Source: Struthio camelus
Lineage: Eukaryota > Chordata > Aves > Struthioniformes > Struthionidae
Assembly: GCF_040807025.1 (NCBI RefSeq)
Contig: NC_090956.1
Coordinates: forward strand, 1,035,517 to 1,099,516
DNA: 64,000 nt
Direction: 5' to 3'
The position numbers and the translations under genes were made by a program. Positions 48,016 to 63,246 of this stretch are shown piece after piece (within the stretch, counting starts at the first letter, position 1; each line of letters opens with the position of its first letter). A model generated the notes under the pieces. The model was not told where the DNA came from, did not search any database, and saw only the letters and a list, made by a program, of their open reading frames with translations.

Positions 48016-48156
48016 GCCTCGCCCACGCGGCCGCCGCCCGCCAGGGGGCGCTGCCCCTGCCCCTGCCCCGGGCGCGGCCCCGCCCCCTCCCCCCGGCGCG
48101 CGCGGCCTGCCGGGATAGGCGCGGGCGGCGCGGGGCACCCTGGGTAGCAGGTCACT
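48016..48156 (+). promoter_or_regulatory. CpG-rich promoter of NDUFAB1
   Basis: A short CpG-dense stretch between the minisatellite and the start codon. No TATA box was seen. The CTACCCAGGGTGCC on the reverse strand just before the start weakly resembles the right half of a ZNF143-type site. Confidence 0.45.
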
Positions 48157-49701
<1,545 letters not shown>

Positions 49702-53908: not shown

Positions 53909-56900
53909 ATGGGGCTGCGGCGGCTCCCGGCGCTCCTGGCGGCCGCAGGTGAGCGGGGGAGCGGGCGGCGGCACCGGGGCACCGGGGACCGGGACCGGGT
54001 ACCGATCGCCGGACACCGGGACCGGCACCGGGTACGGGGCAGCGGGTACCGGGCAGCAGGACCGGGTACGCAGTGCCTGGTACTGAGCACCGGCACCAGA
54101 TATCAGGTACCGGCACCGGGTACTCGGTACAGGGTGTTGGGCACCGGAATCGGGTCCGGGGTCCGGGGTACCTGCCCTGGGCACCGGCACTGGCACGGGG
54201 CACCAGGCGCTGGATACCGGCACCGGCTGCAGGGCAGCGGGCACAGCGGAGGAGGTACCGGTACCAGCATCAGGTCCCGGCACCGGGTCCCGGCACCGGG
54301 CAGGGCCAGCCGGAGAGACCCGCCGGCCAGCACCTTTGGGAGCAAACTGCACCCGGCTCTGGCCGGCGCAGCCCACGGCGGCGGGTGCACGGGTGGGTGG
54401 CCAGGGCCCCTGGTGGGTGCACAGGTGGGCTGGGTGGCCTGTGGCTGAGGGTGCATGGCCATCTGGGGGTCCCACAGCAGTGGGTGCATGTGGGGCAGCG
54501 AGGCCCAGGCAGTGGGTGCATGTGGGGCTGGGATGTCTGTGGTGGTGGGTGCACGTGGGGTGGCCAGTGCCTGGCAGCGGGTGTGTGTGGGGCCGGGATG
54601 CCCATGGTGGTGGATGTGCATGGGGCCGGGATGCCCGTGGTGGTCGGTGCACTTGGGGCAGTGACGCCTCGGGGGTGGGTGCATGTGGGGCCAGGATGCC
54701 CATGGCGGCGGGTGTGCATGGGGCTGGGAGGCCCCGGCGGCGGGTGCATGTGGGGCAGTGAGGCCCTGGTGGTGGGGTGCGTGTGAGGCCAGGATGCCCA
54801 TGGTGGTGGGTGCGCGTGGGGCCGGGAGGCCCTGGCAGTGGGTGCGCGTGGGGCCAGGATGCCCATGGTGGTGGGTGTACGTGGGGCTGGGATGCCCATG
54901 GTGGTGGGTGCGATTGGGGCCGGGAGGCCCCGGCGGCGGGTGCGCGTGGGGCAGTGAGGCCCCGGCGGTGGGTGTGCATGGGGCCGGGATGCCCATGGCA
55001 GTGGGTGCGTGTGGGGCAGTGAGGCCCCGGAGGCGCGTGTGCGTGGGGCTGGGATGCCTGTGGTGGTGGGTGCGCGTGGGGCCGGGATGCCCATGGTGGT
55101 GGGTGCGCGTGGGGCAGTGAGGCCCCGGCGGCGGGTGCGTGTGGGGCCGGGATGTCCATGGTGGTGGGTGCGCGTGGGGCCGGGATGCCCATGGTGGTGG
55201 GTGCGCGTGGGGCAGTGAGGCCCCGGCGGCGGGTGCGTGTGGGGCCGGGATGCCCATGGTGGTGGGTGCGCGTGGGGCAGTGAGGCCCCGGCGGCGGGTG
55301 CGTGTGGGGCTGGGATGCCCATGGTGGTGGGTGCGCGTGGGGCAGTGAGGCCCCGGCGGCGGGTGCGTGTGGGGTCCCTGCGGATGGGCGCCGGGCGGGC
55401 GATGCCGTCCCAGCAGCCCAGCCCGGTGGGTCCCGGTGCGCGGGGTGCTGCGACCGCGGGGCCCCGCGGCGGCGCGATGCTCCCGTTCCCGCTGCTCCCG
55501 TTCCCACGTGCCTTCGCCTAAGGGCTCAATTAGCGCCTTACCCGCGCCAGACCTGCAGATTAATATGGCTAACTGGGGTTTTCACCTTAAGGGAGGTGCC
55601 TGGTTTCAAAGTAAAACACGCGTTTCCAGTAGCTGGTAGATAATGCGGCAATTGGGGGTAGAGATTCTGTTTCCTTTACTGAGGCAAAAGGCCGGTGGTT
55701 TCCAGCTGGGTTTTGAATAATTCCCGAGCTTTTCCTTTCGCAGGAAATGGCTCCCTGTGAAACGCGGTGCCACAAAGGGTTAAACTCCCCCATCCTTGCC
55801 GAGCCTTAGCTTTGTGCAAACACACGCAAACGTTTTACGCAGGCTGAAAAATAATCATGCAGGTGGCTGGGAGCGAGCGCCGGGGTCGCGGCTCGGGGGA
55901 GCCCGGGGCCGGCCCGCGCCGCAGCGCTGCCGCCGTGCCCGGCCTCGCGGATGTCCTCGGCGGCTCCCGTTCGGGAGGCGATGCCAAACGTTTGGCTGTC
56001 CCCGAGCCCGGGGCCTCGCTGGGTCCCTTCGGGGACCCTTCCTGCTCGCTGCCTGGCGCCGACGGGACCTCGTGAAGCCGCGGGAAGAGCCCGGAGCGCC
56101 CGGCACTGGCGTGAGCCGTCCCGCGCGCCCCCGCGGCGCTCGGTGGGGCGGCTGTGGGCTGGCGCCGGAGCCCCCCCCCCGGGGCCGGTGCGCGCTGCGC
56201 TCTCCCCTCTCTCCGCAGTGACCGCCTGGTGCGCGCTGAGCCCGGCTCCGGGCAGCGGGACCCCCTCCCCGGCCAGCCCCGGGCCGGCGGCGGCAGTGGG
56301 GTGCTGCCCCCCTGGAACAGCCGCCTCCGCTGAGCCCCCCGGCACCGAGCGGAGCGACCGGACCCGGCCGCCGGAGCAGGAGGGAGCCGGCACCGAGCGC
56401 TCGTGGCCGCCGGACGCTGCTGGCACCGGCCCGGCGATGACAGCGGTGGAGACCCCCGCCGAGGGGACCCCGGCCGCCAGCGGATCCTGGGGAGCGGCTC
56501 CCACCGCGGCGGCGGCTCCCCCCGCGTCCGGCCCCCCGGGAACCGCCACGGCGGTGGGTGCCGCGGCGCCGACGGGGACGCCCTCGCCCAGCCCCAGCGG
56601 TGGGGGGGAGCGGGCACCCACCAGCGCCTCGCCGGCCTGGCGCCCCACGGGGACGGAGAGCGCGGGGGGCTCGCGCGGCCCCTGGCCTCCATGGGGCACC
56701 AAGGGCCCCGGCGTCCCCGGCCCCACGGACGCCTCGCCGGGGAGCAGCGAGAGCCGCGCGGCGGCCGCCGAGCCGCCCACGGGGACGCCCGCCCCTGCTC
56801 CGGCGACGTCGCCCTTGGCAGGGGGCTTGCTGAGCCCCGCCGGCGCCCCGCGCCCCGTGGGGACGGACCCGGCCCCCGCACCGACCCCTGACTCCCGCCG

Positions 56901-59900
56901 GCGGCACCAGACCGACGTCGCCCGGCGGCATCCCGGCTCTGCCGCTCCGCCAGGGGCCGGGGGCCGAGGGGGGCTCCCCACGGCGGGTGCTGCCCGGCCG
57001 CCGATGGGGACGACCCGGAGCGTGCCGCTGGCCACCGGCGCGGCGTCGGGACCCACGGCCAGCACCCCGGGGCAGGCGTCCCCCGGCCCGAGCCCGGCAG
57101 TGGGGGGGTCAGGGCCGGCCGGCACCCAGGGGCTCCCCGAGCGCAGCCAGGCCCCAGCGGTCCTGCCCGGGGAGCCCCCGGCCTCGACGGCCCCCGCGGT
57201 GCCCCACGCCGGCCCCACGGCCCCGCCGGCCTCCCCCCGCGCCCCCACGGCACCCGCCGCGCCGGCCGCCCCCGCGGCCACCCAACCCCTGGAGGGGGGC
57301 GACCCCGGGCCCCGGGCAGCCACCGACCGCGGCGCCCCACCGACGGCCCCCGGCCCGGGGGAGCCGGCCGCCCCCCGGCCCCCGGCCGCCTCCCCGCCTG
57401 CCCCGGCCCCGGGGCTGGCCACCACCACCGCCACCGCCACCGCCACGGCCCTGCCCCAGCCCAGCGCCACCGTAGCCTGGGCCGAAGCCTCCCCAGAGCC
57501 CGCGGGGGCCGCGTCCCCCCCCGGCAGCGGGAGCCCCTCGCCGGCCACGGGGACGCCCCCCGGGCGGGGGCCGGCGGCGGCGCCCGGCGTCTTCGTCGTG
57601 GAGGATCAGCCGCCGCTGCTCCGAGGTGGGTGCCGGGGGCCGGGGGGGGCCGGGGCTCGGCCGGGAGCCGGCGGCTGAGCCCCCTGGGCCCCGCAGCCGC
57701 CCTCCTCCGCGTGCCCTGCGAGCTGGTGCTGGACATGGGCTTCGTGCCGGCGCTCCGGGACCCGGCGTCGCGCGAGCGCCGCGGCCTGCTGCAGCGCTTC
57801 AACGAGACGGTGAGCCGGCGCGGGGTAGTGTGGGGAGAGGTGGGGCGGCCTGGCGTGGTGTGGGGCAGCGCAGAGTGGTGTGGGGTGACGCGGGGCGGCA
57901 TGGGGGCGGCGTGGGTTGGTGTGGGGCAGCGTGGGGGGGGTGGCGTTGGATGCTGTGGGGTGGCACAGGGTGGCGTGGGGTGACATAGGGCAGCGCAGGG
58001 TGGCGTGGGGTGACATGGGGTGGTGTTGGGCAGTGCAGGGTGCCACGGGCCAGTGCGGGGTGGCGTGGGGCTGTGTGGGGCGATGTGGGGTGGCGTGGGG
58101 CAGTGTGGGGTGACGTGGGGCAGCGCATGGTGGCGTGGGGTGATGTGGGGCAGTGTGGGGGGTGTGGGGTGATGTGGGGCAGTGTGTGGCGGCAAGGGGT
58201 GGCGTGGGGGGGGCAGCACGGGGTGGCGAGGGGCGGCATGGGGCGGTGCGGGGTGACGCGGGGCGGCGCGGGGCGACGAGGGGCCGTGTGGGGTGACGTG
58301 GGGCAGTGCGGGGTGAGGAGGGGTGGCGTGGGGCGGTGTGGGGTGACGTGGGGCAGTGCGGGGTGAGGAGGGGTGGCGTGGGGCGGTGTGGGGTGACGTG
58401 GGGCGGTGCGGGGTGAGGAGGGGTGGCGAGGGGCGGCGTGGGGTGACGTGGGGCAGTGCGGGGTGAGGAGGGGTGGCGAGGGGCGGCGTGGGGCGGTGCG
58501 GGGTGACGTGGGGCGGCGCGGGGCGACGAGGGGCCGTGAGGGGTGACGTGGGGCAGTGTGGGGTGACAAGGGGCCCTGTGGGGTGACGCGGGGCGACGAG
58601 GAGCCGTGTGGGGTGGCGACGTGGGGCAGTGTGGGGTGACGCGGGGTGACGAGGGGCCCTGTGGGGTGGCGACGTGGGGCAGTGTGGGGTGACGCGGGGT
58701 GACGAGGGGCCCTGTGGGGTGGCGACGTGGGGCAGCCCCCGCCCCGGCCTGGCGCTGCCCCCCGGCGGGCCCAGCCCTTCCCTTCCCTTCCGCGGCGCAG
58801 ATCGCCCCCCTCTTCATGGCGGTGCCCGGCTTCCTGCGCCTGGAGGTGAAAACCATCAGGTAGGAGCGGCGGCGGCGGCCGGGCCGCACCGTGGTGGGGC
58901 CGTGCAGTCCGCGGCCCCCCCCGGACTCGCCGCCCCTGTGCCGGCAGGAGGGGCAGCGTGGTGCTGGAGTACGACGCCCTGTTCGCCGCCGCGCGGGTGC
59001 CCCCGCGGGGGCCGGCGCTGGGCGCCCTCCTCAACGCCACCCTGGCGCCCGGCGGCGGCCCCCGCCCGGGGCTGGCGGTCGGCGCGGCCCCCGTCCTGCG
59101 CAACGTGGCCCTGGGTGAGTGCGCGGCGCCGGGCGGCCCCGGCCGCGGGCAGCGGGTGCCGGGGTGGGGGGCTGACACCCCCTCTACCCCCCTCCCCACG
59201 CCCGCAGAGCGGCCGCTGGACCCCTGCGCCGTGCTCTTCTCCTGCCGAGCCGGGTTCGACTGCGTGGCCGGGGCGGACGGCACCGCCCGCTGCACCTCCG
59301 TGTGCCACCGCCACTACTGCAAGAACCACGGCATCTGCACGCACCCGCGGGACCGCGAGCCCGTCTGCCAGTGAGTGCCGCCCGCCCCCCCTGCCCGCCG
59401 CACGGGGCAGAGCGGGGCGCCGACCGGCCTCCCCCGGCTGCAGGTGTCCCGTCGGCCGCGACTTCTGGTTCATGGGGCTGCGCTGCGACTACCGGGTGAC
59501 GCAGCAGAGCCTGCTGGGCATGGCCTGCGGCGTGCTGCTCAGCGTGGCCCTCGTGGGCGCCGTCGTCGCCGGCCTCGTCATCCGCAGGTTCAGGGCGCTG
59601 CTCCTGGAGGCCAAGGTCGACCAGACCAAGAGCAGGTGGGCTGCGCGTGGGGCTGAGCAGGGCTGCACATGGTGCTGGGCGTGGGGCTGAGCAGGGCTGA
59701 GTGTGGGGATGCGCAGGGGGCTGTGCATGTGCGTGGGGCTGAGCAGGGCTGCACATGGGGCTGCACAGGGGGCTGTGCATGTCCATGGGGGCTGAGCAGG
59801 GCTGCACGTGGGGCTGCACAGGGGGCTGTGCATGTCCATGGGGGCTGAGCAGGGCTGCACGTGGGGCTGCACGCGGTGCTGAGCAGGGCTGCACGTGGTG

Positions 59901-62900
59901 CTGCGCGTGGGGCTGAGCAGGGCTGCGTGTGGGGCTGTGCGCAGTGCAGAGCAGGGCTGCACATGGTGCTGGGCGTGGGGCTGAGCAGGGCTGCACATGG
60001 TGCTGGGCGTGGGGCTGAGCAGGGCTGCGTGTGGGGATGCGCAGGGGGCTGTGCATGTGCGTGGGGCTGAGCAGGGCTGCACATGGGGCTGCACAGGGGG
60101 CTGTGCATGTCCATGGGGGCTGAGCAGGGCTGCACGTGGGGCTGCACAGGGGGCTGTGCATGTCCATGGGGGCTGAGCAGGGCTGCACGTGGGGCTGCAC
60201 GCGGTGCTGAGCAGGGCTGCACGTGGTGCTGGGCGTGGGGCTGAGCAGGGCTGCGTGTGGGGCTGAGCAGGGCTGCACGTGGGGCTGCACAGGGGGCTGT
60301 GCATGTCCATGGGGGCTGAGCAGGGCTGCACGTGGGGCTGCGCGCGGTGCTGAGCAGGGCTGCACGTGGTGCTGGGTTTGGTGCTGAGCAGGGCTGCGTG
60401 TGGGGCTGTGCGCAGTGCAGAGCAGGGCTGCACATGGTGCTGGGCGTGGGGCTGAGCAGGGCTGCGTGTGGGGCTGAGCAGGGCTGCACGTGGGGCTGCA
60501 CAGGGGGCTGTGCATGTCCATGGGGGCTGAGCAGGGCTGCACGTGGGGCTGCACGCGGTGCTGAGCAGGGCTGCACGTGGTGCTGCGCATGGGGCTGAGC
60601 AGGGCTGCGTGTGGGGCTGTGCGCAGTGCAGAGCAGGGCTGCACATGGTGCTGGGCGTGGGGCTGAGCAGGGCTGCGTGTGGGGATGCGCAGGGGGCTGT
60701 GCATGTCCATGGGGGCTGAGCAGGGCTGCACGTGGGGCTGCGTGCAGTGCAGAGCAGGGCTGCACGTGGTGCTGGGCGTGGGGCTGAGCAGGGCTGCGTG
60801 TGGGGCTGAGCAGGGCTGCACATGGGGCTGCACAGGGGGCTGTGCATGTCCATGGGGGCTGAGCAGGGCTGCACGTGGGGCTGCGCGCGGTGCTGAGCAG
60901 GGCTGCACGTGGTGCTGCGCATGGGGCTGAGCAGGGCTGCGTGTGGGGCTGTGCGCAGTGCAGAGCAGGGCTGCACATGGTGCTGGGCGTGGGGCTGAGC
61001 AGGGCTGCGTGTGGGGATGCGCAGGGGGCTGTGCATGTGCATGGGGCTGAGCAGGGCTGCACGTGGGGCTGCGTGCAGTGCAGAGCAGGGCTGCACGTGG
61101 TGCTGGGCGCGGGGCTGAGCAGGGCTGCACATGGTGCTGGGCGTGGGGCTGAGCAGGGCTGCACGTGGTGCTGCGCAGGGGGCTGTGCATGTCCATGGGG
61201 GCTGAGCAGGGCTGCACGTGGGGCTGCACGCGAGGCTGAGTGGGGCTGTGCATGGTGCTGGGTGTGGTGCTGAGCAGGGCTGCGTGTGGGGCTGCGCGCA
61301 GTGCAGAGCAGGGCTGCACGTGGTGCTGCGCGTGGGGCTGAGCAGGGCTGCACATGGTGCTGGGCATGGGGCTGAGCAGGGCTGCGTGTGGGGATGCGCA
61401 GGGGGCTGTGCATGTGCGTGGGGCTGAGCAGGGCTGCACATGGGGCTGCACAGGGGGCTGTGCATGTCCATGGGGGCTGAGCAGGGCTGCACGTGGGGCT
61501 GCACGCGGTGCTGAGCAGGGCTGCACGTGGTGCTGGGCGTGGGGCTGAGCAGGGCTGCACGTGGGGCTGCGCGTGGTGCTGAGCAGGGCTGCACGTGGGG
61601 CTGCGTGCGGTGCTGAGCAGGACTGCGTGCGGGGTCCCGGCTGGGATCCACCTGGAGCGTCCCTCGGCCTGCAGTGGGGCTGCGCCCCCCCACCCCCACC
61701 CCACCCGGGAGGTCCGAGCTGGCAGCGGCGCTGAGCAGGGGCTGCCTGGGAGGCGGTGGCAGCGCCACTGGGGTCACGGGGAGCCGCGGCTCCGCAGGGG
61801 GCTCGGCTGCACCTCGGTTCATCCCTGCCAAGAACAACACCCTGCGGCGGCCGATAGCAGCTCGCCGGCGGTGCCGGCCCCCACCTGGGAGCCCCTGTCC
61901 TGCTTCTCCCATGTCTGCGCCGTGGCATCGCCCCGTGTCCCCGGGAGTGCTGGGTGTCCCGGGCAAGGGCCTCCGTGTCAGGCACCGTGTCCCCATCCCC
62001 GCCCTGCCGGCCCCCCCAGCCGGCCCTGCTCGTCCCCGGCAGGACCCTGCTGCCTTCGGGGAGCGGCGCTCGGTGCCGGAAGAAGGCTCCCTGTGCCCGG
62101 GCTGCGCGCCTGGCCGCCGGCCTCGCTTCCTGCCCGCGGCCCGCTCCCCAGGGCTTCCTCCGCGGGAAGCGCAGCCGGGGGGCTGCGGATGCACCGCGGG
62201 AAATCCGGCGGGGAGGCTGCCGGAGCGGGAGCCGCCACTGCTGCCTGGGCTGCAGCCTGCACGGCCGCCTGGCGAGAGCCCTTGCAGCGTTTCCCGCAGC
62301 CTGCGCGCCACAAAAAAAACTCTCCTGAGGCTGGTGGGGTTTTTTTTGTTTTTGTTTTTTTTTAAATCTGCTGTCCTCGCTGGAGACGGTATTTGCTGTC
62401 GCTGAGCCCTGGCTCCCTCCCGCCCTGTGCGGCCAAAGCAGCCCATCTGGGAGCGTGCCAGCTCTCCGAGCCCTGCGGCTCTGTGGCGCGGCGCCCCGGG
62501 ATCGTTCCCAAGGGAACCCCTGCAGCAGATGTTCGGCTGCAGCCAGATGTTCGGCGTGCCGGGCTCTGCCTCCACCCAGGGCGCAGGCCGGGGCTGGCGG
62601 GAGCTTTCGGCGCCCTGCAGCCTGGAGCAGCTGCCCCAGTGCCTGGCTGCCGCGAAAGCCCCAGCGCCGCGTCTCGTCCTGCTGCGCTCGCGGGCTGGGC
62701 GGGGGGGGGACTCTGCGCTCTCGGCCTTGTGCGGGGCTGCTGTGCCAGCGAGCAGCTGCTGCCGCCTGCCCCCCCGCCCCGGCTCCGCAGGCCGGCACGC
62801 GGCAGAGCCTTGCCGTGGCTGCCGAAGGTCGGCAGTGCCGGCACGGCCACGCACTGTGCCTGGGGTGGGTGAGTGCGCGTACTTGCTGCAGGGTTTGGGG

Positions 62901-63246
62901 ATGGGGCTGAAAACTGAACTGATCATTTCTTGCACAATTGCTGGGTCATGGCCGGGGGCCGGGGTGTGGGGGGGTGATGGCGTGGGGCGCTGCCGCAGCC
63001 GTCCTGCCGCGCTCTTGCAGCTACAGGCGGTTCTGCCGCCTGGACGACGTCTCGGCGCAGTACTGGTCTCAGCCCTGGCTCGCTTCGGCCAATTCGCTGG
63101 ACAATCCCGCGTTCAGCAACTCCGAAGAGCTGCTCCAGTTGCACATCCTGGACAGCAGTTGCTGCAGCTGTAGGGACGACGCGGTGGCGGCCAACAGCAA
63201 CAAGCAGCACCCGCCGCCTGGGCGCACCGGGTGCCGGCCCAGGTGA
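53909..63246 (+). CDS. SEA-EGF transmembrane mucin-like protein (IMPG-like extracellular end)
   Basis: Exons by splice sites and phase: 53909-53948, 56219-57625, 57697-57809, 58801-58859, 58948-59114, 59208-59370, 59444-59635, 63021-63246 (in-frame TGA), about 788 aa. A Leu/Ala-rich signal peptide (MGLRRLPALLAAAVTAW) leads into a ~470-residue Pro/Ala/Thr/Ser/Gly-rich exon typical of O-glycosylated mucin stalks. A SEA domain follows (about 485-590: CELVLDMGF to VLRNVAL) with the self-cleavage motif GSVV in RRGSVVLEYD. Next come two EGF-like modules with regular Cys (DPCAVLFSC..., YCKNHGIC...VCQCPVG, DFWFMGLRCDY), a membrane span (SLLGMACGVLLSVALVGAVV) and a basic tail RRFRALLLEAKVDQTKSSYR. The C-terminal ~75 residues are well formed (SANSLDNPAFSNSEELLQL). 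SEA plus paired EGF plus one span is the IMPG2 plan, but the tail does not look like the IMPG2 tail I know. The last exon may instead splice on at 63242 (AG/GTGAGG). The orthologue is unknown to me. Confidence 0.78.
54440..55375. repeat. 65-bp composite minisatellite in intron 1 of the mucin-like gene
   Basis: Two alternating sub-units of about 33 and 32 bases occur, one beginning GCCGGGATGCCCATGGTGG and the other GGCAGTGAGGCCCCGGCGG. In the right half the 65-base period is exact (GGCAGTGAGG at 55211, 55276 and 55341). Copies become more diverged to the left. The period is not a multiple of three and stop codons are rare by composition. Confidence 0.85.
57815..58735. repeat. About 50-bp GTGGGG minisatellite in intron 3 of the mucin-like gene
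   Basis: Tandem short blocks such as GGGGTGACGTGGGGCAGTG and GGGGTGAGGAGGGGTGGCG recur. Two perfect 50-base copies sit around 58285-58385, and a ~55-base variant repeats around 58605-58730. The array fills nearly the whole intron between two SEA-domain exons. Confidence 0.85.
59636..61640. repeat. 2-kb minisatellite (34-bp and ~53-bp units) in intron 7 of the mucin-like gene
   Basis: The core sub-unit is GCTGAGCAGGGCTGCACGTG plus GGGCTGCGCGT-like variants, 34 bases in most copies. An expanded unit of about 53 bases contains GGGCTGTGCATGTCCATGGG. Higher-order blocks of several units recur almost identically, suggesting recent unequal exchange. The array starts directly after the exon 7 donor. 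Confidence 0.9.
61641..63020. other. Remainder of intron 7 of the mucin-like gene
   Basis: GC-rich unique sequence without a splice-bounded conserved exon. It includes a short A-tract/T-tract pair at about 62310-62365. Open frames on both strands here continue from the neighbouring repeat or arise from GC bias. Confidence 0.4.

Follow-up and report, generated by a model that had tools for sequence, protein, structure and literature searches.

The membrane mucins MUC3, MUC12, MUC13 and MUC17 combine a stalk, a SEA domain, an EGF module, a membrane span and a cytoplasmic tail, with a further EGF module placed before SEA. Here, a proposed eight-exon gene of Struthio camelus was analyzed that occupies positions 53909-63246 of a 64,000-nucleotide stretch of contig NC_090956.1 (assembly GCF_040807025.1, positions 1,035,517 to 1,099,516, forward strand; this whole stretch is called the window and the gene the window gene) and that an earlier note had suggested to encode a SEA-EGF membrane mucin, possibly related to IMPG2. 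According to the accessible part of one article, IMPG1 and IMPG2 are cut in their SEA-2 domain at a GSxxV motif, x being V or I, and once IMPG2 has been cut, a membrane piece of 32 kDa remains (PMC9478142). In the available portion of another, the make-up of human IMPG2 is given as a pair of SEA domains, a pair of EGF repeats and a cytoplasmic part comprising residues 1121-1241, and one IMPG2 gene is reported for most vertebrates (PMC10558372). For chicken, the accessible part of a 2006 inventory places the membrane mucins Muc4, Muc13 and Muc16 on chromosomes 9, 7 and 28, with Muc13 adjoining HEG, and gives a weak Muc1 candidate without a location; in that part, no MUC3, MUC12, MUC15 or MUC17 is recorded and no gene fitting the window gene is described (PMC1552070). 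The membrane mucins of the chicken small intestine are listed as MUC4 and MUC13 in the excerpt available of a 2021 review (PMC8521165). Among the open-literature matches listed, no paper on the window gene was named, and the gene may well carry a LOC number in automated annotation. As set out below, we hold with moderate confidence that it is a real gene for a membrane-tethered, mucin-like SEA-EGF glycoprotein and represents an old side branch nearest IMPG1 and IMPG2.

Gene structure and coding potential

The gene model lies on the plus strand, shows GT-AG at every intron border and, just as the earlier note had claimed for its eight exons, joins in phase, giving 788 amino acids (aa) without an internal stop. 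The end phases of exons 1-7 are 1, 1, 0, 2, 1, 2 and 2, and all junctions are phase-matched. The features are as follows:

53909..53948, plus strand: exon 1, carrying the start codon and the opening half of a stretch that resembles a signal peptide; end phase 1; the least certain exon
56219..57625, plus strand: exon 2, remainder of the signal-like stretch and a Pro/Ala-rich stalk of the Pro/Thr/Ser type (about aa 14-482); 1407 bases open; end phase 1
57697..57809, plus strand: exon 3, first part of the SEA domain; end phase 0
58801..58859, plus strand: exon 4, short exon in mid-SEA, leading from phase 0 to phase 2
58948..59114, plus strand: exon 5, remainder of SEA; end phase 1; its cleavage-type motif, G-SVVL, occupies 58952-58966
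59208..59370, plus strand: exon 6, four-cysteine EGF remnant and start of a complete EGF module
59444..59635, plus strand: exon 7, last part of the EGF module, then the membrane span (about aa 673-697) and the start of the cytoplasmic tail; end phase 2
63021..63246, plus strand: exon 8, cytoplasmic tail, including an LDNPAF and a CCSC stretch; stop codon
63835..63840, plus strand: AATAAA polyadenylation signal, 589 bases 3' of the stop

Exon 2 sits inside an open frame extending from 55855 to 57678, and the phase-2 end of exon 6 falls between cysteines 4 and 5 of the complete EGF module. Introns 1-7 measure 2270, 71, 991, 88, 93, 73 and 3385 bases. The locus had been characterized as very GC-rich and laden with minisatellites, which proved correct on both counts; minisatellite arrays occupy the three long introns (54480-55374, 57840-58735 and 59638-61626), their periods including 65/163, 20/50 and 34/211 bases.

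In exons 3-8, the G+C fraction amounts to 0.961 at third codon positions and 0.528 at second positions, and the contrast between the two, counted as 0.439 in the coding-bias test, was matched by none of 5000 non-coding joins (maximum 0.169). The joins were composed of same-length non-coding segments from the introns and surroundings, on both strands, and were scored in the best of three frames. Since they were not required to be open and their segment pool was mostly minisatellite DNA, this coding-bias test is taken as one line of evidence among several. Judged from the DNA, the proposed gene is very probably a real protein-coding gene.

A signal peptide had also been claimed for the protein; a signal-like start is present, but the choice of exon 1 is not unique. 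Within the 3.65 kb searched for exon 1 there are 57 ATGs, and 47 combinations of a start with a donor join exon 2 in frame. At least eight of these combinations exceed the proposed exon on hydropathy, all eight within the minisatellite at 54480-55374; the start context GGCACCATGG favours the proposed exon 1.

Protein domains

The predicted protein matched the Pfam EGF family at aa 628-656 with 21.6 bits against a cut-off of 21.5 (E 2.7e-4); the same search of the 788 aa yielded a single SEA match and no EGF match before aa 600. One membrane span is present at about aa 673-697, with a hydropathy maximum of 2.67 over 19 residues, and is followed by a cytoplasmic tail of about 90 aa. Of the domain series suggested earlier, the stalk, SEA, span and tail stand, but only the second of the "two EGF modules" is complete: the first unit has four cysteines (C602, C608, C614 and C624), and its length falls about 14 residues short of the corresponding unit in IMPG1 and IMPG2. 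Its fourth cysteine was paired by the aligner with C6 of IMPG2, and its spacing fits C4 as well. The stalk, composed of 23% P, 22% A, 15% G, 10% T and 9% S (P+T+S 42%, S+T 19%), is by composition Pro/Ala/Gly-rich and mucin-like, yet poor in Ser and Thr. For the tail, no Pfam family was matched, and within the genome of the same species (1.45 Gb in 262 contigs, designated below by C-numbers) it matched only itself at E up to 10, barring a stop-bearing frame at C4:70.25M, the match of which reaches into the tail. In sequence searches of the PDB, the window protein had matches at chance level only, the best being an EGF at E 0.81, and the IMPG1/IMPG2 pair had weak ones (ADGRF1, E 0.11; NELL1, E 0.13).

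Relationship to IMPG1 and IMPG2

The genes that we take, by their sequences, to be IMPG2 and IMPG1 lie at C1:98.88M and C3:43.69M. The block of the window gene comprising SEA, both EGF units and the span aligned end-to-end with that of IMPG2 at a Smith-Waterman (SW) score of 149, whereas 1000 shuffles averaged 32.8 and did not exceed 52. With the span left out, SEA and EGF together scored 123 (maximum of 2000 shuffles 59) and SEA alone 75, a value equalled by none of 2000 shuffles (maximum 46). Profile alignment by hhalign against IMPG1 and IMPG2 gave 97.2% (E 3.2e-11, 171 columns), as compared to 96.6% over 37 columns for a meprin-like EGF alone and 82.1% over 68 columns for a MUC1-like SEA. 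Because the meprin-like EGF by itself reaches 96.6%, the figure for the IMPG pair owes much to EGF, and the score of SEA alone is more telling.

Gene layout points in the same direction. The IMPG2 block contains four introns of phases 0, 1, 2 and 2, the first three of which recur in the window gene at the same alignment column and in the same phase and are present in IMPG1, too. For the fourth, located after the span, phase 2 is kept and the position agrees within about one codon (exons of 192 and 189 bases), although the stretch preceding it is unaligned. By SEA and by gene layout we read the window gene as nearest IMPG1 and IMPG2 among the genes compared, the MUC3/MUC12/MUC13/MUC17 group being judged by description only. 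Its SEA scored 75 against IMPG2, 73 against IMPG1, 47 against the MUC1-like gene and 21 against MUC16. As the distance of this SEA from the IMPG pair (75 and 73) is about that of the IMPG pair from the MUC1-like gene (72 and 79), the window gene falls outside IMPG1/IMPG2. The kinship to IMPG2 suggested in the earlier note is consequently retained as far as a relative is concerned (SW 149, shared introns), but not in the sense of a plain further IMPG2, from which one SEA domain, another tail and an extra SEA intron set it apart.

Several observations weigh against placing the window gene beside the IMPG pair. Its SEA match at aa 493-555 remained below the Pfam cut-off (13.9 bits against 26.4, E 0.063), as it did when the 201-aa ectodomain was searched alone (16.7 bits, E 0.008), and the gene is absent from the 94 SEA rows returned by an exon-by-exon search of the genome at E up to 1. 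As a control, the IMPG2 block of the same genome reached E 3.8e-16 for SEA and E 9.3e-5 for EGF, so that the SEA of the window gene is clearly more divergent than that of IMPG2. There is one SEA against two in IMPG1 and IMPG2, and the cleavage-type motif reads GSVVL, with a final L instead of the V of GSxxV. The tail did not match that of IMPG2, its score being equalled by 218 of 2000 shuffles, and IMPG2 reached only E 1.18 in a genome-wide protein search that scored the best candidates of a first pass. The phase-0 SEA intron was considered as an IMPG-specific mark and rejected: a phase-0 donor-like site stands at the position of the exon 3 end in all 13 other distinct SEA first exons of the loci examined (most MUC16 rows of the 94 were left out of this set), which makes it a mark of SEA generally. 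The extra phase-2 intron of the window gene, falling just before GSVV, is read through by the SEA-2 of IMPG1 and of IMPG2. The complete EGF alone scored 111 against the meprin-like gene, 85 against C3:14.3M, 75 against IMPG2 and 56 against CSPG5, a ranking that did not change when the span was added (125, 111, 103 and 80). Moreover, the material is genomic DNA of one species. Since the column-wise agreement of the introns is limited to three out of four and the EGF ranking stayed the same with the span, our confidence in a side branch of the IMPG pair was slightly lowered.

In the genome-wide protein search, the best matches besides the gene's own exons were a cadherin-like sequence at C2:148.8M (E 0.022), the meprin-like gene at C2:142.77M (E 0.17), C3:14.3M (E 0.42) and C4:70.25M (E 0.50), the last two each containing a stop; among these first-pass candidates, no second or close copy of the window gene was found. 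The label meprin-like was assigned by eye to C2:142.77M and possibly applies to C3:14.3M. In meprins, astacin, MAM and TRAF-type domains precede EGF; a Pfam search of the 788 aa, taken to E 10, found none of them. Phase 2 after the span is common to the window gene, IMPG2 and CSPG5, while the meprin-like gene has phase 0 there.

Alternative explanations

It might be argued that the window gene belongs to the MUC3/MUC12/MUC13/MUC17 group, for instance as a bird counterpart of MUC3/MUC12/MUC17, and resembles IMPG1 and IMPG2 only through the shared SEA-EGF block. We consider this unlikely, though it is the strongest of the rivals. The exon layout of its SEA equals that of the MUC1 and MUC16 types, and an acceptor-like site at the same place and in the same phase as the extra phase-2 intron was seen by eye in the MUC16 repeats examined, in the MUC1-like gene and in three other SEA matches. 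The mucin-like stalk lies within one large exon, and the absence of MUC3, MUC12, MUC15 and MUC17 from the accessible part of the chicken inventory is likewise counted in favour (PMC1552070). Set against this, chicken Muc13 sits beside HEG on chromosome 7 according to the same source (PMC1552070). The Pfam search of the 788 aa did not find the EGF before SEA that marks the group in general descriptions.

Further SEA-bearing loci were seen in the genome. A long tandem array of MUC16-type SEA exons, in which the repeat unit measures about 2447 bases, extends over C26:3685291-3733866. Another SEA mucin-like gene, to which no name could be given, is indicated at C12:23.20-23.22M on the minus strand: a SEA first exon forms the end of a mucin-like open frame of 1044 aa, a further SEA first exon follows about 3 kb on, and the open frames on either side resemble, by eye, C15orf39 and NEIL1. 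Two SEA-like matches with identical scores, at C40:58012913-58013131 and C41:77561701-77561919, are perhaps Z/W counterparts as in palaeognaths, which is a guess.

A CSPG5 (neuroglycan C)-like growth-factor proteoglycan, in which the membrane-proximal EGF would be the working part and SEA an old remnant, appears improbable. In the CSPG5 gene of this genome, EGF is split by the same phase-2 intron and another phase-2 intron follows the span, and the stretch from EGF through the span to the juxtamembrane part aligns at SW 80 (z score 13.1), but the EGF score is the lowest of the four compared (56), and no SEA was seen in the CSPG5 exons read by eye, nor did CSPG5 give a row in the SEA search, which missed the window gene as well. 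In addition, the cytoplasmic family PF06567 was unmatched in the window protein at E up to 10 and was found in the genome at C2:1.40M only, and the score of the tail against the first CSPG5 tail exon, taken together with some intron letters, was equalled by 875 of 2000 shuffles. CSPG5 had also been tried as a likely sister on account of its EGF, a placement that the alignments failed to uphold. In CSPG5 (C2:1.39-1.40M), long simple-repeat stretches were noticed by eye in the introns around the EGF and span exons.

That the model is decayed or a chance product of GC-rich, repeat-laden DNA, for which a weak SEA, a truncated first EGF, a non-unique exon 1 and evidence from genomic DNA alone might be cited, is hardly credible in view of eight open frames, intact splice sites, the third-position bias (0 of 5000) and collinear homology with matching introns.

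Chromosomal neighbourhood

The earlier placement of the gene beside NDUFAB1 was borne out, and its other flank is a TNRC6-type gene on the opposite strand. In order along the contig, the neighbourhood comprises:

Plus strand: ERN2-like gene, first in the window, named by eye; kinase match below cut-off
Minus strand: PLK1, kinase domain match, named by eye
Minus strand: DCTN5 (PF21711, E 3.7e-22)
Plus strand: PALB2 (PALB2_WD40, E 4.5e-33)
48148..49698, plus strand: NDUFAB1 (PP-binding, E 1.5e-6, in one exon); exons and borders by eye
53909..63246, plus strand: the SEA-EGF gene, next after NDUFAB1
About 64.0-69.0 kb, beyond the window end: run of N of about 5 kb, hiding the 3' flank and whatever gene it may contain
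Beyond the run of N, minus strand: TNRC6-type gene (Ago hook, E 5.3e-10 and 1.8e-7); GW182 M-domain below cut-off

The longest open stretch of the TNRC6-type gene matches no family, and the name TNRC6A for it, like the human order with UBFD1 beside NDUFAB1, is assumed here. When the open frames of 93 kb, about 29 kb of which lie downstream of the window and include more than 5 kb of N, were scanned for seven short motifs of UBFD1, one chance match resulted. Contig C15 was taken to be the counterpart of chicken chromosome 14.

Proposed function and significance

The exons and their phases, the coding bias, the SEA and EGF homology and the one membrane span are all read from the sequence; what the protein does can be proposed by analogy. 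Its precursor would enter the secretory pathway, and the Pro/Ser/Thr/Ala-rich stalk would be O-glycosylated or carry glycosaminoglycan. SEA is expected to fold and probably to cut itself at G/SVVL, as in IMPG1 and IMPG2, leaving stalk and membrane stub non-covalently paired and separable under strain. The EGF module just above the membrane could serve as a spacer or binding module, and the short tail might anchor or recycle the protein. NPxF-like stretches are linked to endocytosis and CCSC-like stretches to palmitoylation, and LDNPAF and CCSC in this tail may, by analogy, have these roles. At a role on epithelial or photoreceptor-type surfaces we can only guess.

As to its origin, we tentatively suggest, without holding it to be the probable course of events, that the gene is an ancient vertebrate membrane mucin from near the root of IMPG1/IMPG2, and perhaps of CSPG5, that predates the loss of the second SEA intron in IMPG SEA-2 and was kept in at least one bird while being lost or unrecognised in mammals. 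If true, it would show a mucin-type SEA gene turning into retinal and neural proteoglycans. If the gene is old, its combination of an IMPG-type block with mucin-type SEA introns would make the origin of photoreceptor matrix proteoglycans testable by trees, and its loss from mammals would illustrate cleanly how a single lineage can dispense with a surface mucin. Bird membrane mucins, moreover, seem poorly catalogued, and GC-rich, repeat-laden loci can escape assembly and annotation.

Comparison with known systems

Compared with the interphotoreceptor matrix proteoglycans IMPG1 (SPACR) and IMPG2 (SPACRCAN), the window gene has SEA and two EGF units in the same order, followed as in IMPG2 by a span and a tail; it differs in its motif, GSVVL as against GSIVV in IMPG2 and GSVIV in IMPG1, and in having one SEA, a four-cysteine first EGF, an extra phase-2 SEA intron, another tail and another locus. 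In the MUC1 and MUC16 types, SEA is interrupted by the same two introns, of phases 0 and 2, but its sequence is more distant (47 and 21) than that of IMPG2 (75). Going by general descriptions, the MUC3/MUC12/MUC13/MUC17 group resembles the window gene in stalk, SEA, EGF, span and tail and differs by its EGF before SEA. The meprin-like gene at C2:142.77M has the most similar complete EGF, likewise split by a phase-2 intron, but MAM-type sequence upstream (by eye), no SEA seen and a phase-0 donor after the span. CSPG5 shares the EGF split by a phase-2 intron and the phase-2 intron after the span, but, unlike the window gene, shows no SEA by eye and has an acidic stalk and a tail of family PF06567. 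Taken as a whole, the window gene probably extends the known kind of SEA-EGF membrane mucins as a member without a nameable close relative.

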